Shown here: positions 19,982 through 37,540 of the stretch, one piece after another | Layout of the letters: the number at the start of each line of letters is the position of its first letter | How positions within the stretch are numbered: the first letter of the stretch is position 1 | DNA from: a bacterium | GTDB lineage: Bacteria; Margulisbacteria; Marinamargulisbacteria; JAHFDA01 | Reading direction: 5' to 3' | Assembly (NCBI GenBank): GCA_023249225.1 | Contig: JAHFDA010000025.1 | Coordinates: forward strand, 1 to 38,123 | DNA: 38,123 nucleotides | Notes under the pieces: generated by a model | What the model was told of the DNA's origin: nothing | Seen by the model: the letters and a program-made list of their open reading frames with translations, nothing else | Database searches by the model: none | Made by a program: the position numbers and the translations under genes

Positions 19982-21187
19982 ATGTCTGTAAGAGTGAAAA
20001 AAGTTGTGCTGGCTTATTCTGGAGGATTAGACACCTCTGTCATTATCCCTTGGCTGATCGAAAACTACGGCTGCGAAGTCATTGCCTATGCTGCCGATCT
20101 GGGACAGGGTGACAAGGGTTCTGAAATTATCAAAAAGGCCAAACGCAGCGGGGCCAGCAAAGCCTTTTATGAGGATGTCACCGCAGAATTTGTGCGTGAT
20201 TATTGCTTTCCATGTTTGCGCGCCCAAGCCAAATACGAAGGCAAGTACCTGCTGGGCACATCTATGGCCCGGCCACTGATTGCCGAAAAACAGGTGCGTG
20301 TGGCCTTGCGTGAAAAAGCCGATGCGGTGGCGCATGGGGCCACTGGCAAGGGCAACGACCAGGTGCGTTTTGAACTGACCTACATGTCGCTGGCCCCACA
20401 TTTAAAAATCATTGCGCCGTGGAAAGATGACAAATGGACCCTCAACTCACGCGAGGAGGCCATCGACTATGCCCATGCGCGCGGCATTCCGGTACCGGTG
20501 ACCAAGAAAAAAATCTACTCCGAAGATGGCAACCTGTGGCATCTCTCGCACGAAGGCGGCGAGCTTGAGGATCCAGCGCGCGAGCCGCTCGACCGCGTCT
20601 ATAAAATAAGTTCACCCCTAAGCAAGGCACCTGGCAAACCTGAATACGTGACGGTGGAGTTTAAGTCCGGTACGCCGGTGGCGGTTAACGGAAAGCGCTT
20701 AAAACCAGTCGAACTCCTCAAGCAGCTCAACGCGCTGGGCGGCCGTCACGGTGTCGGTCAAATCGACATGGTCGAAAACCGGCTGGTGGGCATCAAGTCG
20801 CGCGGGGCTTACGAGACGCCCGGCGGGACGATTCTGTATGAGGCGCACGAAGCCCTGGAACGCCTGGTGCTGGATAAAACCACTTATCAGATCAAGCAAC
20901 CGCTTTCACTTAAGTACGCCGAACTGGTATACAACGGTCAATGGTTTTGCCGCGCCAAAAATAGTCTCGATGTTTTCTTTAACAAGGTAAACGAACGGGT
21001 CACCGGTACGGTACGCGTTAAACTCTTCAAAGGCCGGGCCACAGCCGCCGGAGCCAAGTCACCTTATTCGCTTTACGATCAGGGCCTGGGTGGTTTTTCT
21101 AACGTTAAACTTTATGACCAAAAAGATGCCATTGGGTTTATCCGACTTTTTGGTTTGCAGCAAAGGCTTGAGAATCAGATTAGATAA
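19982..21187 (+). CDS. argG: Argininosuccinate synthase
   Basis: 401 residues that join citrulline and aspartate using ATP. The PP-loop is VLAYSGGLDTSVIIPWL near the start; ARPLIAEKQV, HGATGKGNDQVRFE and YEDGNLWHLSHEGGELEDP-like blocks follow, all characteristic. A strong Shine-Dalgarno AGGAGG sits 6 nt before the ATG. In many genomes argH follows directly; here it is nearly 15 kb away, separated by the CRISPR-Cas island and two unknown genes. Confidence 0.97.
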   Translation: MSVRVKKVVLAYSGGLDTSVIIPWLIENYGCEVIAYAADLGQGDKGSEIIKKAKRSGASKAFYEDVTAEFVRDYCFPCLRAQAKYEGKYLLGTSMARPLIAEKQVRVALREKADAVAHGATGKGNDQVRFELTYMSLAPHLKIIAPWKDDKWTLNSREEAIDYAHARGIPVPVTKKKIYSEDGNLWHLSHEGGELEDPAREPLDRVYKISSPLSKAPGKPEYVTVEFKSGTPVAVNGKRLKPVELLKQLNALGGRHGVGQIDMVENRLVGIKSRGAYETPGGTILYEAHEALERLVLDKTTYQIKQPLSLKYAELVYNGQWFCRAKNSLDVFFNKVNERVTGTVRVKLFKGRATAAGAKSPYSLYDQGLGGFSNVKLYDQKDAIGFIRLFGLQQRLENQIR

Positions 21188-21207: not shown

Positions 21208-23853
21208 ATGAGTACGGGTTATTTTCGATATTGGGGCAAAGCTGATAGAGAAGATCCGTCTCAATTTCACCTATTGGTTTATCATAGTCTCGATGTCGCT
21301 GCGGTCGGGCGAGTGTTACTGGAAGGTCAGCCAAAACTGCTTAGAAATCTTTCCAATCAATCGGGTATTAGACCTGAGCGCTTAATCGATTGGATTACTT
21401 TTTTGCTTGCTCTCCATGACATTGGCAAGTTTGCAGACAGTTTTCAAAATCTTATTCCAGATCTATTTAATCAGCTTCAGGGTAGAGCTTTTGATACGGT
21501 ATATCGACAACGCCATGATACCTTGGGGTTTCGGTATCTTGATCAATATTTGATAAAAGCTATTTCACGTGAAGAATCGAGTGATTTACGGGATCTGCTT
21601 TTGCCTTGGCTGAATGCGGTTTGTGGCCATCATGGGCAACCTCCCAAAAATGATACGGATCCCAGGCCCTTAGGCAAAGATTTTCCAGCAATGATACTGA
21701 CCGATGCTAATAGTTTTGTAGCATTTGTTCGGGATAAATTTTTACCCGATGGTTTTCCGTTTGGCGTCGAAGAGTATCGTTTGTTTTGCGATCGCTTTCC
21801 GCGAATTTCATGGTTAGTCGCCGGGTTGGCGGTGGCTTCTGATTGGATTGGATCAAATAGCAGTTGGTTCCGATATTGTAAGGATCAACAAGATCTAAAT
21901 AGTTATTGGCAAACCAAGGCCTTACCTAACGCATTAACGGCTGTTAATAAAAGCGGTTTTATTCCTGTCGTGGCACAAGAATATTTAAGTTATCGACGTA
22001 TCTTTCCGGGCATTGCCCAGCTTACCCCGTTACAAGAACATTCCGAAAATTTGAAAATAACGGATACCCCTGGCTTGTTCATTTTGGAAGAGGTGACGGG
22101 TGGCGGAAAGACGGAAGCGGCCTTCATATTAGCCCAGCGCCTAATGGCAAAGGGTTTGGCAGATGGAATCTTTATGGCCCTGCCTACCATGGCGACCGCA
22201 AATGCAATGTATAAGAGAGTTCGTGCTATTTATAAAAAATTATTTCAAGACGATGCCGATCCATCGTTAGTTCTGGCCCATAGTTCGGGGCCCATGGTTT
22301 TAAAAATGGAGAAAAATACCCGACTAGATCATGGTTATGGAGGCGATGAAAGTAGTGCTACACAGGATTGCGCGGCATGGTTTTCGGACAATAGAAAAAA
22401 AGCCCTACTGGCGCATGTAGGTGTAGGTACTATTGATCAGGCTTTGCTTAGCATCCTGCCGGTTAGACACCAATCCTTGCGCTTACTTGGTTTATACGGA
22501 AAGGTTCTTGTGGTTGACGAGGTGCATGCCAACGATGATTATGTGCACAAGCTGCTGTGTTCACTATTAAAGTTTCATGCATCGTTTGGGGGCAGTGCCA
22601 TTTTGCTCTCGGCTACGCTTCCACAACAAATGCGCAAGGAATTGCTAAAGGCCTATGCCGAAGGCCGGCGATTACCAGCCCCTGAAGTGATGGAAGTTAA
22701 GTATCCCTTGCTTACATATTATTCCGAAGGTCAAATTTGCGAGCATGCAGTTGCAGCGCGGCGAGAGATGTCTCGTGAGGTGCGAGTAAATCTGATTTAT
22801 ACAGAGCAGCAAGTATATGATGCTATTCAGGCTGCCTTGAATAAAGGGCACTGCGTTTGCTGGGTTCGCAACACGATTGTCGATGCGCTGCAGGCATATC
22901 GCTATTGGCAAACTCGCATGGAACTTGAATTATTAACCTTATTTCACTCCCGCTTTGCATTAAGTGACCGCTTGGAAATTGAAAATAAGGTTTTGGATTA
23001 TTTTGGACCAGATAGCGCCAGTAACGTGCGAAAGGGCAGATTGCTAATTGCCACACAGGTGGCTGAACAGTCGTTAGACTTAGATTTTGATTTTATGGTC
23101 ACAGATCTTGCTCCGATTGATCTTGTTATTCAAAGGGCTGGTCGTTTGCAGCGCCATGCACGAGGCAATCGCACGCCAGTTTTGGCTGTCTATACGCCCA
23201 TGCCGGAGCCCGAAGCTAAATCAGACTGGTACAAAAAGCATTTTCCAAAGGCCGCCAGGGTGTATCCGCATCACGGGCAACTATGGCTAACTGCTCGGTG
23301 GTTATGCGAAAGAAGATCTTTTCGTATGCCCGAATATGCAAGGGATATGATCGAATTTGTGTTTTCCGAGTCGTCTTACAATGCGGTTCCGCCAGATCTT
23401 CAAATGACTGAAGATAAGTCGCAAGGGGCAGATCAGGGTAAAAAAAGTATGGCTCGTTTCAATAGTCTTGATTTGAATCAGGGGTATAAACAAACACTAA
23501 CCCATTGGCAGGATGACGCCTTTGCACCAACCCGTTTGGGAGAACCTACCGTAACGCTGCGTCTGGCGCGTTGGCAGGATAATCGCCTGGTGCCCTGGAT
23601 TGAAGTGCATGATGAGTATGGTTGGCAGCTTTCTCAACTGAGTGTTAGAAAATATTATGCAGCGGCAGAATATGTGGGTGAACATGCAGTGGCCTTTGAT
23701 GAGGCAAGGCGGAGTATGAGAGATCAGGGCAAATATGTGCTACTTGTGCCTTTGATCGAAAAGAATGGAATTTGGTGCGGGAGCGTTCTTAATTGCGAGG
23801 GTGCAGTGGTGGACGTTGTATACACCGTTAAGTTTGGTGCCGAGTTTGTATAA
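21208..23853 (+). CDS. cas3: CRISPR-associated helicase-nuclease Cas3 (type I-E)
   Basis: 881 residues, the effector nuclease recruited by target-bound Cascade. The N-terminal HD nuclease domain has YHSLDVAAVG (His near 26), ALHDIGKFADSF (HD near 70) and VCGHHGQPP. The SF2 helicase follows: Walker A EEVTGGGKTEAAF near residue 297, DEVH near 437, LLSATLP near 470, and motif VI VIQRAGRLQRHAR. The C-terminal domain is of the type I-E kind. It starts 20 nt after argG with no obvious promoter of its own, so read-through from argG is possible. Base composition is more AT-rich than the arg genes, consistent with transfer. Confidence 0.96.
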   Translation: MSTGYFRYWGKADREDPSQFHLLVYHSLDVAAVGRVLLEGQPKLLRNLSNQSGIRPERLIDWITFLLALHDIGKFADSFQNLIPDLFNQLQGRAFDTVYRQRHDTLGFRYLDQYLIKAISREESSDLRDLLLPWLNAVCGHHGQPPKNDTDPRPLGKDFPAMILTDANSFVAFVRDKFLPDGFPFGVEEYRLFCDRFPRISWLVAGLAVASDWIGSNSSWFRYCKDQQDLNSYWQTKALPNALTAVNKSGFIPVVAQEYLSYRRIFPGIAQLTPLQEHSENLKITDTPGLFILEEVTGGGKTEAAFILAQRLMAKGLADGIFMALPTMATANAMYKRVRAIYKKLFQDDADPSLVLAHSSGPMVLKMEKNTRLDHGYGGDESSATQDCAAWFSDNRKKALLAHVGVGTIDQALLSILPVRHQSLRLLGLYGKVLVVDEVHANDDYVHKLLCSLLKFHASFGGSAILLSATLPQQMRKELLKAYAEGRRLPAPEVMEVKYPLLTYYSEGQICEHAVAARREMSREVRVNLIYTEQQVYDAIQAALNKGHCVCWVRNTIVDALQAYRYWQTRMELELLTLFHSRFALSDRLEIENKVLDYFGPDSASNVRKGRLLIATQVAEQSLDLDFDFMVTDLAPIDLVIQRAGRLQRHARGNRTPVLAVYTPMPEPEAKSDWYKKHFPKAARVYPHHGQLWLTARWLCERRSFRMPEYARDMIEFVFSESSYNAVPPDLQMTEDKSQGADQGKKSMARFNSLDLNQGYKQTLTHWQDDAFAPTRLGEPTVTLRLARWQDNRLVPWIEVHDEYGWQLSQLSVRKYYAAAEYVGEHAVAFDEARRSMRDQGKYVLLVPLIEKNGIWCGSVLNCEGAVVDVVYTVKFGAEFV

Positions 23854-23868
23854 AATTAAAGGCAAATT

Positions 23869-23958
23869 GATGGAATCCCCACACCTGTGGGGAACAGGTT
23901 TTCGCCAAGCGATGTCAATAATCGCCACTCGGGACATCCCCATAATCATGGGGGACAT
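23869..23958 (-). ncRNA. Predicted crRNA-like regulatory RNA (CreR-like mini-array)
   Basis: On the minus strand two degenerate CRISPR repeats flank a 32-nt pseudo-spacer. Pseudo-repeat 1 (23930-23958) matches the array repeat at 20 of 29 positions and ends ATGTCCCG, 6 of 8 to the crRNA handle ATGAACCG. Pseudo-repeat 2 (23869-23897) matches 20 of its first 23 positions but has lost the handle, which would not be needed there. Both keep the Cas6e stem: CCCCAC/GTGGGG in repeat 2, and CCCCAT/ATGGGG in repeat 1, a compensated pair change. The repeat-to-repeat distance is 61 nt, identical to the array. The pseudo-spacer (23898-23929) targets the adjacent cas promoter. No third copy is seen. Confidence 0.8.
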
Positions 23959-23978
23959 CGGTAGAATGCTGCCAAAAA

Positions 23979-24013
23979 TTCATAGAGTTAATTTATCATT
24001 AATCTCCACTCTT
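23979..24013 (-). promoter_or_regulatory. Predicted Cascade-binding site of the crRNA-like RNA
   Basis: On the minus strand the PAM AAG (24011-24013) is followed by AGTGGAGATTAATGATA. The pseudo-spacer begins AGTGGCGATTATTGACA. Positions 1-5, 7-11, 13-15 and 17 match. Mismatches up to 17 are at 6, 12 and 16; type I-E Cascade leaves every sixth base unpaired, so 6 and 12 should not matter. Beyond 17 there is almost no match, which fits binding without cleavage. The PAM overlaps the -35 box of the plus-strand promoter. Confidence 0.8.
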
Positions 24014-24018
24014 TACAA
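23990..24018 (-). promoter_or_regulatory. Possible promoter of the crRNA-like RNA
   Basis: On the minus strand TTGTAA (24013-24018) and TAAATT (23990-23995) are 17 nt apart, each 4 of 6 to consensus. Its -35 shares bases with the divergent Cascade promoter, and the Cascade site covers it, so the RNA would also repress itself. Confidence 0.4.
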
Positions 24019-24040
24019 ATTATTTGTTTGTAGTTATTAT
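24012..24040 (+). promoter_or_regulatory. Promoter of the Cascade operon (TTTACA-17-TATTAT)
   Basis: TTTACA (24012-24017, 5 of 6) and TATTAT (24035-24040, 5 of 6) are 17 nt apart. Transcription would start near 24047, about 5 nt before the small ORF at 24052. Its -35 overlaps the predicted Cascade site. Confidence 0.7.
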
Positions 24041-24051
24041 CCTACTACGTA

Positions 24052-24177
24052 ATGGTAGAAAGTTTACTTCTATTGATTAAAGATGCTGTATCGGCGGGTA
24101 ATCTTGCTCAACCTCAGGCCCTTGTAGCACTTGCGCTATTGGTAGCCTTGGTGGCTGTATTTAAGATTAAGGCTTGA
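24052..24177 (+). CDS. 41-residue hydrophobic membrane peptide, toxin-like
   Basis: A short gene between cas3 and cas8e. The product has an N-terminal helix (MVESLLLLIKDAV), a short polar turn (SAGNLAQPQ) and one transmembrane stretch (ALVALALLVALVAVF) ending in basic KIKA. It is the first gene behind the predicted Cascade promoter, and its TGA lies 6 nt before the cas8e ATG, so cas8e may depend on its translation. There is no Shine-Dalgarno; the expected transcript start is about 5 nt before the ATG. The size and layout recall small membrane toxins of type I toxin-antitoxin systems, but I recognise no family. Alternatives: a leader peptide for cas8e, or a chance ORF. Confidence 0.6.
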   Translation: MVESLLLLIKDAVSAGNLAQPQALVALALLVALVAVFKIKA

Positions 24178-24183
24178 TTATTT

Positions 24184-25734
24184 ATGAACCTGATTGACGA
24201 TCCTTGGATCCCGGCACGTCGCAAAAATGGAAATATTGAACGTATTGCGCCGTGGCAAATTGTTGAAGGTACGGGGGATAACGAGATTATCGAACTGGCT
24301 GCTCCGCGTCCCGATTTTAACGGTGCGCTGATTCAGTTTTTAATTGGCTTATTGCAAACAACGTATGCGCCGCATACACCCAAGGAGTGGCGTGACAAGT
24401 TGGAAAACCCACCATCCTCCCAAGAACTGAAATCTGCGTTTGCACCGGTTGTACATGCTTTTGAATTGGATAGCGATGGGCCACGGTTTATGCAGGATCT
24501 AACGATGGAGGTGAATTATGAGGATGCTAACCCTATTGGTAGTTTGTTTATTGAAGCTCCTGGAGAACAAACCCTAAAGCAGAATAAAGATCACTTTGTG
24601 AAGCGTGACCAAATTAACCAAATTTGTGAAGCATGTGCTGCTGCTGCGATTTATACCTTACAAATCAATGCACCCAGTGGTGGTGCTGGTCATCGTACGG
24701 GTTTGAGAGGTGGTGGACCACTGACGACCCTTATTAGGGGAGTTAATTTATGGCAACTTGTTTGGCTGAATGTTTTAGAAGAAAAAGATTTTCTGGCTAA
24801 AAGTGGTAACCACGAAAAAGATGCGTTTGAAGCAAAGTTTCCGTGGCTGGGAGCTACGCGTACGAGCGAAGGAGATAAGGAGACGACACCCGAGGATGTC
24901 CATCCGGTTCAAAATTATTGGGCAACTCCTAGGCGGATACGACTGTTATCTCCACTTGGCTCAGGTGTCTGTGATATATGCCTAAAACATCAACCACGTT
25001 TATATGATAAGTATGTTGCGCAGAACTATGGCGCTAATTACAAAGGGCCGTGGCAGCATCCATTGTCGCCTTATTTTATTGATTCTGATGGAAAGACTAG
25101 CGCAATCCATTTGCAACCTGGTGGTATGCGCTATAAGCATTGGCTAGGATGGATTTTGGATGGCGCTTTAAGTACGAAAGGGCAAAAAATATCGGCACGC
25201 GTTGTTTCGCGGTACCGGTATGATACGGAAAAAAAACAGACCGTCTGGGCCTTTGGTTATGACATGGATAACATGAAGGCGCGCTGTTGGTATGAGGGAA
25301 TCTTTCCATTAATTCATATTAATCCTGAAATGCTAGAGGAATATCGATATTTGGTTAAAATTCTTATTGAATCTGCCGAGCTTGCGGTTAAGGAAACCCG
25401 AGGGGCAGTTAAAAAAGCTTGGTTTCGTGAGGGTGTAGAAGTTAGGGGAGATATGTCGCGGGTTGATGTTTTTTTTTGGAACCAAACCGAAGCCAGGTTC
25501 TATGACGAATTAAAAAACTTGCGAGATAACTTAGAGTCCGGAAATAAAAATAATAAGCCGCTACTGGATCAATGGTCAAAATACTTACTCGATGTATCCT
25601 TATCCATATTTGATGATTTATCCCAAACCGGTTCCTTTGATGCAGTAGACCCGGCCCGTATTGCCAAGGCCATGAATAGTTTGGAGAGAAATTTGAGAAG
25701 CAAAAAATTTCGTGCGATTTTGGATCTATCATGA
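24184..25734 (+). CDS. cas8e: Cascade large subunit Cas8e (Cse1/CasA)
   Basis: 516 residues, the PAM-reading large subunit of type I-E Cascade. The start MNLIDDPWIPARR and the ELAAPRPDFNGALIQFLIGLLQT block are diagnostic of Cse1. The middle region has PSGGAGHRTGLRGGGPLTTL, the loop that contacts the PAM area in this family. The C-terminal four-helix bundle follows. The ATG comes 6 nt after the stop of the small membrane-peptide gene. The last 4 nt overlap the next gene (ATGA). Codon use is AT-rich, like the rest of cas3-cas6e. Confidence 0.95.
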   Translation: MNLIDDPWIPARRKNGNIERIAPWQIVEGTGDNEIIELAAPRPDFNGALIQFLIGLLQTTYAPHTPKEWRDKLENPPSSQELKSAFAPVVHAFELDSDGPRFMQDLTMEVNYEDANPIGSLFIEAPGEQTLKQNKDHFVKRDQINQICEACAAAAIYTLQINAPSGGAGHRTGLRGGGPLTTLIRGVNLWQLVWLNVLEEKDFLAKSGNHEKDAFEAKFPWLGATRTSEGDKETTPEDVHPVQNYWATPRRIRLLSPLGSGVCDICLKHQPRLYDKYVAQNYGANYKGPWQHPLSPYFIDSDGKTSAIHLQPGGMRYKHWLGWILDGALSTKGQKISARVVSRYRYDTEKKQTVWAFGYDMDNMKARCWYEGIFPLIHINPEMLEEYRYLVKILIESAELAVKETRGAVKKAWFREGVEVRGDMSRVDVFFWNQTEARFYDELKNLRDNLESGNKNNKPLLDQWSKYLLDVSLSIFDDLSQTGSFDAVDPARIAKAMNSLERNLRSKKFRAILDLS

Positions 25735-27125
25735 AATCTCCTAGCCGAAAAGAAAATCAAAATCTGGAATGGAAAGAGATTTGGCGGGACGAGTATCTTA
25801 AATGGGTTTGTGGTTTTGCCAATGCCGAGGGTGGCACGCTGATTATAGGTAAAAATGATAAAGGCCTAACGGTTGGAATAGAAAATGCCAAGGAACTTTT
25901 GGAGCTTTTGCCGAATAAAACCCGCGATCTGCTTGGTATTTTGGTTGATGTCAATCTTCGCAGGTCGAACGCTAAGGAATCCGTTGAAATCGTGGTCTCT
26001 GCATACCCTAACCCGATCAGCTACCGGGGTGAGTACTATTACCGCAGCGGTAGTACCAATCAGGCCCTAAGAGGATCCGCCTTGGATCGGTTTTTGTTAC
26101 GCAAACAGGGCAGGCACTGGGATGATGTCCCCATGCCTTCTTTTAAGCCGCAGCATTGTAGTGCAAATGCTTTAAAACTTTTTAAACAAAAAGCCAAGCA
26201 AAGCGGGCGCATGTCTGATGCTGTGCTAAAAGACGGTCGTGAGTTTCTGTTTGAAAATTTGGAACTAGTCGATACCCATGGGCTAAGGCGGGCTGCTTGC
26301 CTGCTTTTTTCTGATCATCCTCAAAAATATTTTGCTGGTTCATGGATCAAGATTGGATACTTTGCTTCTAACGATGACCTACGTTATCAAGATGAGGTAA
26401 ATGGAAATTTGTTTGAGCAGATCGAAAAGGCTATGGATCTACTGCAAACCAAATATTTAAAAGCCTACATCACCTACCAAGGCATACAGCGAGTCGAAAA
26501 CTTTCTCTACCCATCAGATGCTTTGCGCGAGGCCTTGATCAACGCTGTTGTCCACAAGGACTATGCCAGCGCAGTTCCCATACAGATTAGCGTATACGAA
26601 GATAAGATTTGCCTTTGGAACCCTGGGCAGCTTCCAGACGGCTGGACGATGAAGCGTTTTTTAGGCAAGCATCCTTCCAAGCCCCATAACCCGCTTCTGG
26701 CCAATACCTTTTTTAGAGCAGGTTATATAGAGGCTTGGGGGAGAGGTATTGATAAGATCAAAAAAGAGTGCCAGGAGCTTGGAATTCCGAAGCCAATGTA
26801 TGACTTTGAGATGTCGGGCCTGATGATTACCTTTAACGCGAACCCAGATCATATAAAGGCTGCCGGTTCACAGACTGCTGGGAGCGTAAAAACTTCGGTA
26901 GAAACGCGGGTAGAAACGCGGGCAAAAACGCCGGTGAAAATATTGCAATTGTTGCAAAGTCATCCAGAGATGACCTTGGCACAAGTCGCTGCAAATATTT
27001 CTAAATCACTTAGCGCAGTTGAGAGGGCCAGTTCAAAACTCGTCAAAGATGGCCAGCTAAAATATGTCGGCCCCCAAAAAGGCGGGCATTGGGAAGTCAG
27101 CAAAAAGGAGGTAAAGGATGTCTGA
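25731..27125 (+). CDS. AlbA_2/Schlafen-like ATPase with C-terminal winged helix, inside the cas operon
   Basis: 464 residues, not a known Cascade subunit. The N-terminal AlbA_2 domain (about 10-90) shows LEWKEIWRDEYLKWVCGFAN and GGTLIIGKNDKGLTVGI. A GHKL-type ATPase domain of the HATPase_c_4 kind follows (YPSDALREALINAVVHKDY; LWNPGQLPDG; WGRGIDKIKKEC). After a Thr/Val/Glu linker made of tandem repeats comes a winged-helix domain (MTLAQVAANISKSLSAVE). Such proteins are seen as DNA-binding regulators and in phage defence. It overlaps cas8e by 4 nt and cse2 by 8 nt, so it is an integral, co-translated part of the operon. Its function here is unknown. Confidence 0.9.
   Translation: MKSPSRKENQNLEWKEIWRDEYLKWVCGFANAEGGTLIIGKNDKGLTVGIENAKELLELLPNKTRDLLGILVDVNLRRSNAKESVEIVVSAYPNPISYRGEYYYRSGSTNQALRGSALDRFLLRKQGRHWDDVPMPSFKPQHCSANALKLFKQKAKQSGRMSDAVLKDGREFLFENLELVDTHGLRRAACLLFSDHPQKYFAGSWIKIGYFASNDDLRYQDEVNGNLFEQIEKAMDLLQTKYLKAYITYQGIQRVENFLYPSDALREALINAVVHKDYASAVPIQISVYEDKICLWNPGQLPDGWTMKRFLGKHPSKPHNPLLANTFFRAGYIEAWGRGIDKIKKECQELGIPKPMYDFEMSGLMITFNANPDHIKAAGSQTAGSVKTSVETRVETRAKTPVKILQLLQSHPEMTLAQVAANISKSLSAVERASSKLVKDGQLKYVGPQKGGHWEVSKKEVKDV
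26897..26932 (+). repeat. 12-bp tandem repeat in the AlbA_2 gene
   Basis: Two perfect copies of GGTAGAAACGCG and a third degenerate copy encode the VETR-VETR-AKTP linker before the winged helix. In-frame slippage here could change linker length. Confidence 0.8.
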
Positions 27126-27657
27126 AGCATCGAACAAAATGGCTCACATCATCAGCGAGTGGTGGAAGGAATGTATCGAGGATGAAAGGGACGAAGAGCC
27201 GGATCAAAAGGCGAGAAAAAATTGGAAGGGTGATAGTGCTGCTTTGAGACGAGCCAGGACACCCAATGAGGTTGTATTTGTTCCGGCCTATCATGATTTG
27301 TATCATAAATTAATTAATGCAGATGTTAACGTAGGGCGGGAGTCTATAGCGATTGTGGCGGGGATCTTATCCCATGTTAAGAAAAATTCTGGTACCGAGA
27401 ATGCCTTTCCTACCGAAATGGGATCTTCTAAGGAGGGAAGTAAAGATAAGGCCAAGGTCAGTAGTTTGCGGTTTAGGCGCTTGCTGGCAGAAAAAGATTC
27501 TCACAAAATGTATCCAATGATGATTCGCTTGATTCGTTTAATGAAGGGCCACGTTAATTTAGTTGATTTGGCCAATGATGTTTATTGGTGGAATGAAAAA
27601 ACCCGTAAAGATTGGGCATACGAATATTATGCGGCTGCCCCAAGTTCAGAAAAATAA
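27118..27657 (+). CDS. cse2: Cascade small subunit Cse2 (CasB)
   Basis: 179 residues, helical, the small subunit present as two copies in type I-E Cascade that holds the displaced strand. LRRARTPNEVVFVPAYHDL, SSLRFRRLLAEKDSHKMYPMM, RLIRLMKGHVNLVDLANDV and the final Trp-rich segment are typical. A strong Shine-Dalgarno (AAGGAGG) lies just before the ATG, inside the AlbA_2 gene. The stretch ENAFPTEMGSSKEGSKDKAK is a polar loop. Confidence 0.93.
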   Translation: MSEASNKMAHIISEWWKECIEDERDEEPDQKARKNWKGDSAALRRARTPNEVVFVPAYHDLYHKLINADVNVGRESIAIVAGILSHVKKNSGTENAFPTEMGSSKEGSKDKAKVSSLRFRRLLAEKDSHKMYPMMIRLIRLMKGHVNLVDLANDVYWWNEKTRKDWAYEYYAAAPSSEK

Positions 27658-27671
27658 AAAGGAGTAATGTT

Positions 27672-28865
27672 ATGACAAAATTTATTCAATTGCATTTGCT
27701 GACCAGTTATCCACCTTCCAATTTGAATCGTGATGATTTGGGTCGACCCAAGACGGCTGTTATGGGCGGGGTTCAACGGCTACGGATATCCTCCCAGAGT
27801 TTAAAACGGGCGTGGCGGACTTCTGATTTATTTCTTGATAGCTTGGTCGGGCATGCAGGGATTCGGACACGTCGCATTGGGCAAGCTATCAAAAAGTCTC
27901 TGATGTCAGGTGTGGATCTGTCTGAAATTCTACGCAATCCCGAAAAAGAGTATGGAAGTGGATCCGGAATACCCGAAAAAGATGCAACGCAGTGGGCATG
28001 GCAGATGGCAGCAGTATTTTCTGATAAATCTGCTAAGGCAGAGGACGAAGAAATTATAGAGGAGGAAGCTGAAGAAAAGTCTAATAAGAAGGGCAAAAAG
28101 GATAAAAAATCCAAAAGTAATGTTGATAAGGATACTTTGGCAGGGGAAGTGCTGGTGTTTTACAGCCCCGAAGAAATCAAAGCATGCGAAAGCTTGGTAT
28201 TAACTTTAATTAAGGAAAAAAGGCCGTCCAAAGATACAGAAATTAAGTCTTTGCCTAATAAGACTGTTTCGGGTGCGGATCTAGGATTATTTGGTCGTAT
28301 GTTGGCGAGTAACCCTAAATTTAATGTTGAGGCGGCCTGCCAAGTTGCCCATGCGATCACTGTTCACAAAGTTGCTGTTGAAGATGATTACTTTACAGCT
28401 GTTGATGATCTTAACAAGCAAGAAGAAGATGCGGGTGCAGGGCATATTGGTGAGACCGAATTTGCGGCTGGTCTGTTTTATCTTTATGTCTGTGTTGATA
28501 GCGATCTTTTGGTTAAAAATCTGTCTGGTAATAAAGAACTCGCTCAAAAAACGATTCGTGCCCTGGTCGAATGTATGGCTACGATTGCCCCAACCGGAAA
28601 ACAAAATAGTTTTGCGTCGCGTGCCTATGCATCCTATGTTCTTGCAGAAAAGGGTAATAAACAGCCACGCTCCTTGTCGGTTGCCTTTCTAACGCCGATA
28701 GATGATAAAAAAGATTTATTGGATACGGCCATCGGTCAGCTTGAGGCTACACGCGATAAAATGGATGCGGTTTACGGAAAGGTTGCAGAAGAGTCTCAAG
28801 AACTCAATGCAAAATCGGGTAAAGGTACGTTGGCTGACCTGATAAAGTTTGTGGCGAGTTTCTAA
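27672..28865 (+). CDS. cas7e: Cascade backbone subunit Cas7e (Cse4/CasC)
   Basis: 397 residues, the six-fold RNA-binding backbone of Cascade. The start is the ATG at 27672 behind AAGGAG, giving the conserved MTKFIQLHLLTSYPPSNLNR. QRLRISSQSLKRAWR (crRNA contacts) and GADLGLFGRM follow. It is longer than E. coli CasC (363 aa): residues about 119-153 hold a charged insertion, first acidic (EDEEIIEEEAEE) then basic (KKGKKDKKSKS). The last residues (TLADLIKFVASF) are normal. Confidence 0.94.
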   Translation: MTKFIQLHLLTSYPPSNLNRDDLGRPKTAVMGGVQRLRISSQSLKRAWRTSDLFLDSLVGHAGIRTRRIGQAIKKSLMSGVDLSEILRNPEKEYGSGSGIPEKDATQWAWQMAAVFSDKSAKAEDEEIIEEEAEEKSNKKGKKDKKSKSNVDKDTLAGEVLVFYSPEEIKACESLVLTLIKEKRPSKDTEIKSLPNKTVSGADLGLFGRMLASNPKFNVEAACQVAHAITVHKVAVEDDYFTAVDDLNKQEEDAGAGHIGETEFAAGLFYLYVCVDSDLLVKNLSGNKELAQKTIRALVECMATIAPTGKQNSFASRAYASYVLAEKGNKQPRSLSVAFLTPIDDKKDLLDTAIGQLEATRDKMDAVYGKVAEESQELNAKSGKGTLADLIKFVASF

Positions 28866-28880
28866 AAGGATCTGATCATT

Positions 28881-29618
28881 ATGATTGAGTATCTTGTTTT
28901 TCGGCTATATGGGCCCATGGCTGCTTGGGGTGACATTGCAGTGGGAGAGGTAAGGCCTACGTTTATGCACCCTTCCAAATCAGCGATTATGGGATTGATA
29001 GCGGCTGCGCTTGGCATCGATCGCACGGATGATGAGAAACATAGGGCTTTGGTAGAGAATTATGGTTTTGCTGTGCAAGTTAACAGTGTGGGTACGCCCT
29101 TAACCGATTACCATACAGTGCAAGTACCTTCATCAGGTACTGGGCGTAACAGACAAATCTTTACTACACGTAGAGACGAAATATTATCGGGACCCAGACA
29201 GGATCTTAATACCATATTGTCACGGCGAGATTACCGTATGGATGCGTCTGCCATCATTGTTATTTGGATGAAAGTTCCCTCGTTCTATACATTGACGGAT
29301 TTTCAAAAAGCCTTGTGTGAGCCCCACTATGTACTTTATTTGGGACGTAAATCTTGCCCGCTTTCACTGCCGATTCAGGCTCAAGTAGTAGCTGCTGATT
29401 CAGTGCGGGATGCTATCAATGTTGCAAAATTTTCACCCTTAGATTTACCACACACCGATAGTCCGGCTTTGTTTTGGGAGGAGGGAGCAGTTAGCGGACT
29501 AAAAGAGCAAAACACCTTTGTGAGAAGGGATGTCACTCTATCCCGCAAGCGCTGGCAATTTGATGTTCGCAACGAACATCACAGTGCAATTTCCAAGGAG
29601 GATAACCATGTATCTTAG
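28881..29618 (+). CDS. cas5e: Cascade subunit Cas5e (CasD)
   Basis: 245 residues. This RAMP subunit caps the 5-prime handle of the crRNA. The N-terminus YLVFRLYGPMAAWGD and RPTFMHPSKSAIMGLIAAA are the Cas5e signature, as are SRRDYRMDA and YLGRKSCPLS. It overlaps cas6e by 11 nt. The ATG at 28881 is preceded by AAAAGGA about 10 nt away. Confidence 0.94.
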   Translation: MIEYLVFRLYGPMAAWGDIAVGEVRPTFMHPSKSAIMGLIAAALGIDRTDDEKHRALVENYGFAVQVNSVGTPLTDYHTVQVPSSGTGRNRQIFTTRRDEILSGPRQDLNTILSRRDYRMDASAIIVIWMKVPSFYTLTDFQKALCEPHYVLYLGRKSCPLSLPIQAQVVAADSVRDAINVAKFSPLDLPHTDSPALFWEEGAVSGLKEQNTFVRRDVTLSRKRWQFDVRNEHHSAISKEDNHVS

Positions 29619-30288
29619 TCGGATTAAACTACGAGACGGGACTGATAGAAACAACGATTTTTATAAGGTGTTTGAAAATCAGTATAAAATCCACCAATCT
29701 TTGTGGCAGCTGTTTGCTGATCGCTCGGATCGCAAAAGGGATTTTTTATATCGGGCTGATCAAACCGAAGGTAAACCATTTTTTTATGTTGTGTCGGAAC
29801 GTAGACCATTGGAAGATTCACCAATTTGGCATGTGGAATCAAAAAACTATCAGCCGCAGATAGCTAAGGGTACAAGGTTAAATTTTATGCTTCGAGCCAA
29901 CCCGACGGTAAAGAAGTTTAAAGAAGGCTCAAAGAATGGTTTTAGATGTGATGTCGTAATGGATGCTAAGTGTCGTCTTAGAGAAAACACATCTGAAAAT
30001 CGAGATTTGCCGGTGTCGGAATTGGTTCAAGTCGAAAGTGAAAAATGGCTAAAGTCTAAAGAAGTTTCAAATGGCTTTAGACTTGATTTTGTTAAAGCGG
30101 ATGCTTACAACCAAATGCGATTTTATAAATCGAGTAGGGGTAACCCCATTCGTTTTAGTACGGTTGATTTTGAAGGTGTTTTTTCAGTTACTGAACCGGA
30201 TGTTTTTATTCCTAAGGCGTTGTTTGGAGGTATTGGGTCTGAAAAAGGATTTGGTTGTGGCCTGATCTTAGTAAAGCTCATTCGTTAA
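29608..30288 (+). CDS. cas6e: crRNA-processing endoribonuclease Cas6e (CasE)
   Basis: 226 residues, which cuts the repeat hairpin to make crRNAs and stays on the 3-prime end. The start at 29608 (after AAGGAGG) gives MYLSRIKLR; His29 in YKIHQSLWQLF matches the catalytic His region of the family. The C-terminal glycine-rich loop GGIGSEKGFGCGLIL is diagnostic. It should process both the array and, if the stem is recognised, the crRNA-like RNA at 23869-23958. It ends the AT-rich Cascade part of the locus. Confidence 0.94.
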   Translation: MYLSRIKLRDGTDRNNDFYKVFENQYKIHQSLWQLFADRSDRKRDFLYRADQTEGKPFFYVVSERRPLEDSPIWHVESKNYQPQIAKGTRLNFMLRANPTVKKFKEGSKNGFRCDVVMDAKCRLRENTSENRDLPVSELVQVESEKWLKSKEVSNGFRLDFVKADAYNQMRFYKSSRGNPIRFSTVDFEGVFSVTEPDVFIPKALFGGIGSEKGFGCGLILVKLIR

Positions 30289-30347
30289 TTTCTTATGACT
30301 TCGACCGCAAAATTAAAAAACTGATCCCTAAATCAAAAAAGTAAACT

Positions 30348-31596
<1,249 letters not shown>

Positions 31597-31647: not shown

Positions 31648-33672
31648 CCGTTCCCCACGCGTGTGGGGATGAACCGCACTTTGGCGACGAAAAACACACA
31701 CGCGATATCCGTTCCCCACGCGTGTGGGGATGAACCGTCTGTAGTAAACGTGCGGCTGCCACGGGTTAGCCGTTCCCCACGCGTGTGGGGATGAACCGCC
31801 ACAGATACCGGGCGCTGGTAAATCTCCTTTCCGTTCCCCACGCGTGTGGGGATGAACCGAAAGGAGAAAATAAAATGTGTCCATTAAATAGCCGTTCCCC
31901 ACGCGTGTGGGGATGAACCGCTCCACGGGCCTTTAGTGTGGTGTGTGGTGTTCCGTTCCCCACGCGTGTGGGGATGAACCGTGGTCTTTTGCTAAAATTT
32001 TCATGTTATTCCCCCGTTCCCCACGCGTGTGGGGATGAACCGTCCGGTGATCTAAGTCACGCCTTACCTGACGACCGTTCCCCACGCGTGTGGGGATGAA
32101 CCGTAGAAAATATGTTTTATGTGGGGGCAACCCCTCCGTTCCCCACGCGTGTGGGGATGAACCGCAATTTAAACTCGACAACGGGCTGTATCTGTGCCGT
32201 TCCCCACGCGTGTGGGGATGAACCGTTTTTTACCTGCTTTCCTTGCGTGTTTAGTGTCCGTTCCCCACGCGTGTGGGGATGAACCGCAGCCTTAAATCAA
32301 TTCACGGGTACAGAAAATCCGTTCCCCACGCGTGTGGGGATGAACCTGAGCATTGGTTAGATGAGGATGCCATTAAGCAAGCCGTTCCCCACGCGTGTGG
32401 GGATGAACCGGCGAGGTGCCATTGCGTGGAGCGTAGCGAAACCCGTTCCCCACGCGTGTGGGGATGAACCGAATCTAACTAACTCGTTAGTGAATCTTAT
32501 CTACCGTTCCCCACGCGTGTGGGGATGAACCGCCGTTTGCCTCCATTTGCATGGCACAGAATACCCGTTCCCCACGCGTGTGGGGATGAACCGCCCGAGA
32601 AAATCGTCGTTGCTGTTTGGGGAATCCGTTCCCCACGCGTGTGGGGATGAACCGTGTTGCATTGCAACACTGTTGCGCTTCTAACCCCGTTCCCCACGCG
32701 TGTGGGGATGAACCGAAAATTTTTCTATCTGAGAGGAAAGGCGACCCCCGTTCCCCACGCGTGTGGGGATGAACCGGTCATGTTATTCACCTACCTTTAT
32801 TGTCACTTCCGTTCCCCACGCGTGTGGGGATGAACCGTAGGCAAATGATGGTCAATAAACGTAGTAAGGCCGTTCCCCACGCGTGTGGGGATGAACCGCC
32901 CAAAACGTACAACCTGTTTCACAGGTCACACCGTTCCCCACGCGTGTGGGGATGAACCGAAAGGAGAAAAAAAAATGAACACAAAAACCGACCGTTCCCC
33001 ACGCGTGTGGGGATGAACCGCCAACGAGTTTCTAACCAAGACCGGCACAACCCCGTTCCCCACGCGTGTGGGGATGAACCGGACAGTGTTATTTTTATCG
33101 CGAAATATCTAGGCCGTTCCCCACGCGTGTGGGGATGAACCGAGGCTGAATTCCCGCCGCCGCATGGCGGCGCACCGTTCCCCACGCGTGTGGGGATGAA
33201 CCGAAAAAGCGTTGGAGACGGCGCTAGAGTTAGCGCCGTTCCCCACGCGTGTGGGGATGAACCGCCTTGACCCTTCTACCCTTAGTGTTTGTTCCCCCGT
33301 TCCCCACGCGTGTGGGGATGAACCGGCACAAGATCAACACAAAATAATGCTGGACGCCCGTTCCCCACGCGTGTGGGGATGAACCGCGATTTACCCCCAT
33401 CAGGTCAGGTCGCCAAGCCCGTTCCCCACGCGTGTGGGGATGAACCGCGCGAGGAAACCGGCTTTATGTCGGGCCTGTGCCGTTCCCCACGCGTGTGGGG
33501 ATGAACCGATCGGCGGGAACCGTGCGTACCTGATCGACTGCCGTTCCCCACGCGTGTGGGGATGAACCGAAAACTGAAAAAATCATCGTAGATAGAGGCC
33601 ACCGTTCCCCACGCGTGTGGGGATGAACCGACGCAATTATGTAGCAGTAAATGCTATGCGCTCCGTTCCCCA
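31648..33672 (+). CRISPR. Type I-E CRISPR array: 33 full repeats, 33 spacers, truncated end repeat
   Basis: The 29-nt repeat reads CCGTTCCCCAC, loop GCGT, then GTGGGGATGAACCG, with a 6-bp stem. I counted 33 full copies and a final piece (CCGTTCCCCA, 33663-33672). The period is 61 nt throughout (32-nt spacers) except spacer 12 (32348-32381), which is 34 nt and follows the only variant full repeat I noticed (last base T instead of G). The leader is on the left next to cas2, so new spacers enter there and the array is transcribed on the plus strand. Full repeats are nearly perfect, indicating an active array. Plus- and minus-strand ORFs across it are artefacts of the repeat. Confidence 0.98.
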
Positions 33673-36116: not shown

Positions 36117-36133
36117 CTTTTTTGCAGTACAAT
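36106..36133 (+). promoter_or_regulatory. argH promoter (TTATCA-16-TACAAT)
   Basis: TTATCA (36106-36111) and TACAAT (36128-36133) are 16 nt apart. The -10 ends 6 nt before the argH ATG, with no Shine-Dalgarno. The argH gene can therefore be expressed apart from the distant arg cluster. Confidence 0.55.
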
Positions 36134-36139
36134 GGAAGC

Positions 36140-37540
36140 ATGCCCACACATAAACCCTGGGGTGGACGCTTTCAACAAGGTAGCAGTCGTCTGACCGAGC
36201 TGTATACCGAATCGCTTTCTTACGATCGGCGACTGGCGCTCTACGATTTACGAGGTACAGGGTCACACGTCAAGGCCTTGCATAAGGCGCGGGTGCTGAC
36301 TTCTACCGAAGTGTCCAAAATGATCGCCGGTCTCAAGGCCCTTGAAAAGGATCTGCGGGCCGGAAAAATAAAATGGGATCCCTTTCTCGAAGATGTCCAC
36401 ATGAACCTGGAAACCTTGCTGGTGAAAAAAATCGGTCCGCTTGGGAAAAAAGTACACACCGGACGCAGCCGTAACGATCAAGTGCTCACCGACTTGCGCC
36501 TGTATGTCAAAGATGCCGTGCTTAACCTGGGCTTGGCGCTTTTGCAGGTCCAGCGCCAGTTCATTTTATTGGCCGAAAAATATACCAATGTTCCCATGCC
36601 CGGGTACACGCATTTGCAACGCGCCCAACCGGTGTTGCTGGGGCACCATTTGCTGGCCTATGTCGAAATGTTCGAGCGCGACAAGCACCGCTTGGCGGCA
36701 ACTTACGAGGCGGCTGACGTGCTGGTGCTGGGGTCAGCAGCTTTGGCAGGCACGGCTTACGCCATTCCGCGCGAGTTTGTGGCCAAAGACCTTGGTTTTG
36801 CGGCTGTTTCGCAAAACAGCATGGACGCTGTGGCCGACCGCGATTTTGTGACCGATGCCTTGTATGCCTGCGCCGTGATGGGTATCCATCTTTCGCGCCT
36901 GGGCGAGGAACTGGTGCTGTGGAGTTCGTCCGAATTCGGTTTTGTCAGCATTGGGGATGCCTTTACCACCGGTTCTTCGATCATGCCGCAAAAAAAGAAT
37001 TCTGATGTGGCCGAACTTTTGCGCGGAAAATCAGGACGCTTGCTGGGGAACCTTGTGGCGCTACTCACGGCGCTTAAGGGTTTGCCACTGACGTATAACC
37101 GCGATTTGCAGGAAGACAAAGAACCGCTTTTTGATTCGCTCGATACGGTTTATCTGGGTTTACAGGTATTGGGCGACTTACTTCCGACCCTTCAATTTAA
37201 TACCGAGCGCATGCGGCGGGCGGCGCTCGAAAATTTTTCTGCTGCAACTGATTTGGCGGATGCGCTGGTTAAAAAGGGTCTGCCGTTCCGCGACGCACAC
37301 GCTGCGGTAGGGCAGGCAGTGGCATATTGCGAACGGCAACTAAAAAATTTCGAGAATCTGTTACCCGATGAATGGCCGCGAGCTTTGGGAAAAAAAGCGG
37401 CCGGTTTGCTGACACCTTTGGAGTGTACAAAGGCCATACGACTTGAAAATATTCTTAATATCCGCAACGTGACGGGTGGCACTGCGCCGGGGCAGGTGCA
37501 GAAACAAATAGGTCGGTGGAAAAAGAAACTGGGGTTTTGA
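36140..37540 (+). CDS. argH: Argininosuccinate lyase
   Basis: 466 residues, splitting argininosuccinate into arginine and fumarate. The start MPTHKPWGGRFQQ (ATG 36140) is the usual N-terminus; an upstream in-frame ATG at 36122 lies in the promoter and is rejected. Signature motifs: HTGRSRNDQV, PGYTHLQRAQPV and the flexible loop GSSIMPQKKNSDVAE with the catalytic Ser. It completes arginine synthesis begun at argC but is separated from argG by the CRISPR island. The stop overlaps the next gene. Confidence 0.97.
   Translation: MPTHKPWGGRFQQGSSRLTELYTESLSYDRRLALYDLRGTGSHVKALHKARVLTSTEVSKMIAGLKALEKDLRAGKIKWDPFLEDVHMNLETLLVKKIGPLGKKVHTGRSRNDQVLTDLRLYVKDAVLNLGLALLQVQRQFILLAEKYTNVPMPGYTHLQRAQPVLLGHHLLAYVEMFERDKHRLAATYEAADVLVLGSAALAGTAYAIPREFVAKDLGFAAVSQNSMDAVADRDFVTDALYACAVMGIHLSRLGEELVLWSSSEFGFVSIGDAFTTGSSIMPQKKNSDVAELLRGKSGRLLGNLVALLTALKGLPLTYNRDLQEDKEPLFDSLDTVYLGLQVLGDLLPTLQFNTERMRRAALENFSAATDLADALVKKGLPFRDAHAAVGQAVAYCERQLKNFENLLPDEWPRALGKKAAGLLTPLECTKAIRLENILNIRNVTGGTAPGQVQKQIGRWKKKLGF

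Follow-up and report, generated by a model that had tools for sequence, protein, structure and literature searches.

The CRISPR-Cas locus in this 38,123-nt stretch of marinamargulisbacterial DNA (hereafter the window, meaning the whole stretch that was analyzed) raises the question of what is encoded by a one-spacer mini-CRISPR with two degenerate repeats, which lies on the minus strand between cas3 (ending at nt. 23853) and cas8e (starting at nt. 24184), 7.7 kb away from the main CRISPR array. Judging from sequence comparisons, we consider it very probable that it encodes a CreR-type guide, through which Cascade would repress its own cas operon by partial pairing with the promoter (Table 1). 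A Schlafen AlbA_2/HATPase_c_4/winged-helix gene (nt. 25731–27125) interrupts the cas operon between cas8e and cse2, and argG and argH (nt. 19982–21187 and 36122–37540) flank the CRISPR-Cas locus, as if it had been inserted into an arginine gene cluster.

Table 1. Features of the mini-CRISPR, its predicted target, and the surrounding cas genes in the window (nt. positions).
Feature	Position	Strand	Basis
cas3	21208–23853	+	TIGR01587 and TIGR01596 above cut-off; ends 331 nt before cas8e
psi-R2, second degenerate repeat, CTGTTCCCCACAGGTGTGGGGATTCCATC	23869–23897	−	8 mismatches in 27 nt; stem perfect
Pseudo-spacer, 32 nt, very probably encoding a CreR-type guide	23898–23929	−	61-nt period and 13/13 target match outside positions 6 and 12
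psi-R1, first degenerate repeat, ATGTCCCCCATGATTATGGGGATGTCCCG	23930–23958	−	7 mismatches in 27 nt against the array repeat
Predicted protospacer of the guide	23979–24010	−	14/17 match; predicted to pair over about 15–17 nt
PAM, AAG	24011–24013	−	Direct reading; overlaps the −35 box by two bases; AAG in 24 of 26 loci
Predicted promoter of the membrane-peptide/cas operon, TTTACA (24012–24017)-17-TATTAT (24035–24040)	24012–24040	+	Sigma-70-like, 10/12
41-aa single-helix hydrophobic peptide, unannotated, first cistron, MVESLLLLIKDAVSAGNLAQPQALVALALLVALVAVFKIKA	24052–24177	+	Similar to 36-aa Methylomonas/Methylococcaceae peptides
cas8e (cse1), first Cascade gene behind the target promoter	24184–25734	+	TIGR02547, E=4.6e-99
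cse2, cas7e, cas5e, cas6e, cas1e, cas2e, rest of the operon	27118–31596	+	NCBIfam above cut-off
Main CRISPR array, repeat CCGTTCCCCACGCGTGTGGGGATGAACCG, 61-nt period	31648–33630	+	Direct reading of repeats

The starts of psi-R1 and psi-R2 are exactly 61 nt apart, the same period as in the main array. The stem of psi-R1 is preserved through one compensatory change (C-G to T-A), and this repeat provides the 5′ handle of the guide, AUGUCCCG, the terminal handle of the repeat being ATGTCCCG. Compared with AUGAACCG, the window handle differs at two positions, departures that might weaken guide loading; across the 26 loci found to carry the device (see below), the psi-R1 handle is conserved at 77–100% per position. 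In psi-R2, the hairpin is intact and the handle part has decayed, as it also has in the 26-locus set as a whole. Retention of hairpin and handle in psi-R1, and of the hairpin only in psi-R2, is what would be expected if Cas6e cut both repeats and only the first handle were used. We looked for a terminator behind psi-R2 and found none, and extra self-folding of the 32-nt guides is weakly supported. An ordinary CRISPR array was considered and rejected, given the 7 and 8 mismatches per 27 nt in its repeats and a target that is the locus's own promoter, matched in part. Within the main array, one repeat (nt. 32321–32410) ends in CCTG instead of CCG and the next repeat starts 63 nt on, with the rest keeping to 61 nt.

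A sequence-only reading had proposed that the pseudo-spacer targets the cas promoter next to it, matching 14 of 17 positions of the minus-strand site that begins at nt. 24010, with an AAG PAM directly 5′ of it and pairing that stops after position 17. Its coordinates proved correct, and the comparison bore out each of these points. It further predicted that Cascade with this RNA would shut off Cascade, an interpretation that the results below support; it made no connection with the CreR class and overlooked the small membrane-peptide gene at the head of the operon. The guide AGTGGCGATTATTGACATCGCTTGGCGAAAAC (minus strand, nt. 23929→23898) and the site AGTGGAGATTAATGATAAATTAACTCTATGAA (minus strand, nt. 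24010→23979) agree at 14 of 17 positions, with mismatches at positions 6, 12, and 16, and at all 13 of positions 1–15 other than 6 and 12; the PAM (nt. 24011–24013) was read directly, and agreement past position 17 is at chance level. A match of at least 14/17 anywhere in nt. 23957–24183 arose in 9 of 20,000 dinucleotide shuffles, and in none of 20,000 when AAG was also demanded. A search of the complete 2.83 Mb genome with AAGAGTGGNGATTANTGA, which joins the PAM to the 13 seed positions, hit a single exact site, the cas promoter, and no other target with PAM and full seed was found in that genome; the reversed control of AAGAGTGGNGATTANTGA had no match there even at two mismatches.

The overlap of the PAM with the −35 box, also part of the sequence-only reading, was confirmed (AAG at nt. 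24013–24011, TTTACA at nt. 24012–24017). While TTTACA-17-TATTAT was the only sigma-70-like site that a promoter scan found in nt. 23800–24250, shuffled sequences held 1.4 such sites on average, and the promoter by itself is therefore not significant and is given as a reading. A promoter for the guide RNA itself had been suggested as well; a minus-strand TTGTAA-17-TAAATT can be read by eye, but it reaches only 8/12, below the scan threshold, and is weak. The window target extends over the DNA just upstream of the −35 box, and Cascade bound there would be expected to occlude RNA polymerase and its upstream contacts.

The same arrangement was sought in 80 relatives of cas8e (42–47% identical, from many phyla) by scanning upstream of the gene. 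Guides were picked solely by repeat-like upstream sequence and compared with PAM-bearing sites, both in their own locus and in all others. Of the 75 own comparisons, 21 matched at 11 or more of 13 seed positions and 18 at 12 or more; among the 6075 swapped comparisons, the corresponding numbers were 18 and 1. Five further loci came from a longer scan, bringing those with the device to 26 of 81 (25 relatives and the window); their guides are mostly unrelated in sequence, and the guide strand is always opposite to cas8e. All 24 loci in which the measured cas3–cas8e gap exceeds about 250 nt carry the device, as do L064, where an overlapping ORF spoiled the gap measurement, and L051, where it lies further upstream.

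Given that the 26 loci were selected partly by seed match, only positions 6, 12, and 16 onward are unbiased in the following counts. Guide and target agree in 26, 26, 25, 26, and 26 loci at positions 1–5, in 26, 26, 21, 26, and 25 loci at positions 7–11, and in 26 and 24 loci at positions 13–14. Positions 6 (8/26) and 12 (7/26) are at chance level, position 16 agrees in 17 of 26, and agreement is at chance level from position 18 on. The PAM is AAG in 24 loci, ATG in one, and AAA in one. All five mismatches at position 9 (L014, L026, L033, L038, and L064) place a guide C against a target T.

The sequence-only reading had named, as evidence that would speak against it, relatives whose guide and promoter had diverged and lost the seed match. 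This was checked, and guide and target were found to change together in the 26 loci. The coevolution of guide and promoter is evident from the loss of the match in swapped guides and from the homologous pair L072/L081, whose intergenic DNA can be aligned and which shows compensatory double changes at positions 1, 3, and 7, with position 6 having drifted. In the Methylomonas trio (L050, L056, and L057), positions 6 and 12 are the sole mismatches of guide and target over the first 15 nt. For such close relatives, we rejected gene conversion between spacer and target, since it would have made positions 6 and 12 agree too, and these are mismatched next to a seed that is either unchanged or changed on both sides. 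No close relatives of the window genome carrying the locus were found, and the evidence of coevolution was drawn from other lineages that have the device. The pattern is that of selection for Cascade binding to the promoter.

A decayed array, its spacer matching the promoter by chance or as an accidental self-spacer, would explain the degenerate repeats. We find this hardly credible in view of the 0 of 20,000 shuffles, the recurrence of the arrangement in 26 loci of mostly unrelated sequence, the swapped controls, the compensatory changes, and the selective loss of the unused handle alone. A chance match was rejected by the shuffles, the genome scan, and the swapped guides, and the decayed-array reading is refuted for the class by covariation.

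Across 18 minus-strand targets, the mean promoter score is highest when the second base of the PAM is also the first of the −35 box (6.7 vs a mean of 4.3, sd 0.6), so that C-TTGACA contains CTT, which is complementary to AAG; the PAM of L072/L081 sits in the −10 box instead. This register bears on another explanation, that the site serves primed adaptation or decoy binding and not repression. In type I-E systems, adaptation can be primed by a partially matching site that has a good PAM; however, priming would not need a recurrent promoter register with the PAM in the −35 or −10 box, and we regard this explanation as very improbable.

Spacer lengths fall into two classes, 31–34 nt in 20 loci and 20–21 nt in six (L027, L036, L037, L072, L075, and L081), the latter being about two 6-nt Cas7 steps shorter. 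In L075, the main array keeps the usual 61-nt period despite the short mini-CRISPR spacer. The 20–21-nt guides should bind without a full R-loop. On the Cse1 tree, the presence of the device requires 18 changes, at least 15 of them on well-supported branches, and 4 of 500 shuffles were as low, which indicates a device that is often gained and lost or that moves separately. Further genomes with more distant Cse1 yielded no device; it is thus not universal in type I-E, and our claim is limited to nearer Cse1 relatives. The last 100 nt before cas8e in L014, L026, L040, and L064 share a leader motif like GGCCTCCAAA, which lies inside a possible hairpin; they have no membrane ORF, and the motif may represent an RNA element.

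The anatomy of the mini-CRISPR, the match of seed and PAM, the position on the promoter, and the coevolution of guide and target can be read from the DNA itself, and from these we infer how transcription, processing, binding, repression, and release may proceed. The minus-strand transcript of the mini-CRISPR would be cut by Cas6e in both degenerate repeats, and the resulting crRNA-like RNA would be loaded into type I-E Cascade. The complex would recognize the AAG that overlaps the −35 box in front of cas8e and form a short R-loop of about 15–17 bp, paired in 5-nt blocks with positions 6 and 12 flipped out. An R-loop of this length presumably does not reach full locking, the state in which Cas3 is licensed. 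Cascade would then stay on the promoter, blocking RNA polymerase with no cutting. When free Cascade is high, the operon would be off; when Cascade is drawn off by crRNAs or anti-CRISPRs, the operon, and the membrane peptide with it, would be released.

Several known systems resemble this one. In type II-A systems, a natural single guide, tracr-L, directs Cas9 through a short partial match to its own promoter. The likeness lies in an effector sent to its own promoter by a short partial match; unlike here, tracr-L involves Cas9 and a tracrRNA, and its guide biogenesis is unrelated. Cas-regulating RNAs (CreR) were reportedly described by Liu et al. in Cell Host Microbe in 2023. Autorepression by CreR has been described for types I-B, I-E, and V-A (reviews PMC13131331, PMC12737573), and the autorepression principle is thus already published, type I-E included, and is not new. 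The window locus resembles CreR in its degenerate mini-CRISPR by the cas genes, its predicted crRNA-like guide, the limited match of this guide to the cas promoter, its type I-E effector, and the predicted autorepression of that effector (PMC12737573, PMC13131331, PMC12948488). The CreR features found here are the separate mini-CRISPR, the seed and PAM in the cas promoter, the limited complementarity, and the coevolution of guide and promoter. It differs, as far as a comparison resting on reviews can tell, in the 20–21-nt guides of six relatives and in the membrane peptide (in Methylomonas also hicBA) that lies between the target promoter and cas8e; CreR generally comes without a toxin gene, and the membrane peptide predicted at the head of the window operon may or may not be a toxin. 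A peptide under such a switch, natural 20–21-nt guides, and a recurrent register with the PAM in the −35 box were not found described, with CreR again compared via reviews.

The CreA guide of CreTA likewise has two degenerate repeats, of which psi-R1 gives the handle, pairs through a seed at positions 1–5 and 7–11, and has its PAM in a promoter element, with positions 6 and 12 free (PMC8501985, PMC9458426). When a CreA guide was mutagenized, changes at positions 6 and 12 were tolerated, whereas each of the ten remaining positions among the first 12 was required (PMC8501985). In CreTA, however, repression acts on CreT, a small toxic RNA that carries a mini-ORF of rare codons, and here the unit under control would be a cas operon headed by a 41-aa peptide. 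CrePA, in which Cascade plus CreA represses a KilA-N toxin (PMC12737573), shares a protein-coding gene under guide-directed Cascade repression, but no KilA-N protein is present here; the 41-aa peptide has no family match, and the next gene is cas8e.

The peptide at the head of the operon would start ~4–6 nt past the expected transcript start and has no ribosome-binding site; we therefore assume that its translation is near-leaderless. It aligns with 36-aa peptides encoded at the corresponding site in Methylomonas and in a related genome of the Methylococcaceae (L050, L056, L057, and L080), and with a longer version in L059. The pairwise similarity of the window and L080 peptides is modest (35% over 31 aa, E 4e-4), and the family profile, which scores the window peptide at E 1.4e-13, includes that peptide and is not independent. 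In L056/L057, the peptide gene shows 16 synonymous vs 2 non-synonymous codon differences of 35, indicating purifying selection in Methylomonas. A small ORF with a membrane helix is present at this site in about half of the 26 loci (the window, L016, L033, L037, L039, L046, L047, L050, L053, L056, L057, L059, and L080). A second, unrelated single-helix type (MPGLLEVIVC...KIDFKD) lies just upstream of cas8e in Gammaproteobacteria (L016, L039, L046, L047, and L053), and L033 and L037 have further small membrane peptides upstream of cas8e. In L050, L056, and L057, the toxin-antitoxin genes hicB and hicA occupy the interval between the peptide and cas8e (about −430 to −17 from cas8e). Peptide family searches of Pfam, NCBIfam, PADLOC, and PHROGs gave nothing above cut-off, with one marginal PHROGs match of a Methylomonas peptide to a family of unknown function (E 0.057). 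Relatives of the peptide were found neither on plasmids (tblastn with the Methylomonas and Gammaproteobacterial counterparts) nor on viral contigs (search with the family alignment).

These peptides admit further readings. The device could be a CreTA-like addiction or abortive module with a peptide toxin as its main cargo, cas autorepression being incidental to a shared transcript, so that losing or inhibiting Cascade would free the peptide and stop growth. The position of a hydrophobic 36–41-aa peptide at the start of the operon, the occurrence of such small membrane-helix ORFs in about half of the loci, the strong purifying selection in L056/L057, and the HicB/HicA pair added in the same interval in Methylomonas all fit such a module. 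However, the remaining loci lack a membrane ORF at this site, and in one of them, L055, the target lies directly before cas8e, which makes the cas promoter the common denominator; the peptide also matches no known toxin family, and we hold this reading to be unlikely. The peptide could instead be an accessory immunity factor, such as a membrane anchor or sensor, merely co-expressed with Cascade. Its place directly before cas8e in the operon and its conserved sequence would agree with this, but it is absent where cas3 abuts cas8e, and at least two unrelated peptide types occur at the site; such a role is conceivable, though somewhat unlikely. A combined module, in which one guide lets Cascade repress both its own operon and a head micropeptide acting as a toxin or alarm, is a tentative proposal that we think will probably not hold. 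If true, a cell whose Cascade is lost or inhibited would at once make more Cascade and free the peptide, tying self-regulation and abortive defense to one promoter.

Autorepression of the cas operon by a CreR-type guide, our preferred reading, would make this locus a clear-cut example of self-regulation by a CRISPR effector via a degenerate guide. The covariation over 26 loci amounts to natural mutagenesis, which speaks to the guide positions that matter, the pairing that is needed, and the placement of Cascade on the promoter. The micropeptide under the switch and the natural 20–21-nt guides offer leads on whether such switches may also guard against anti-CRISPRs.
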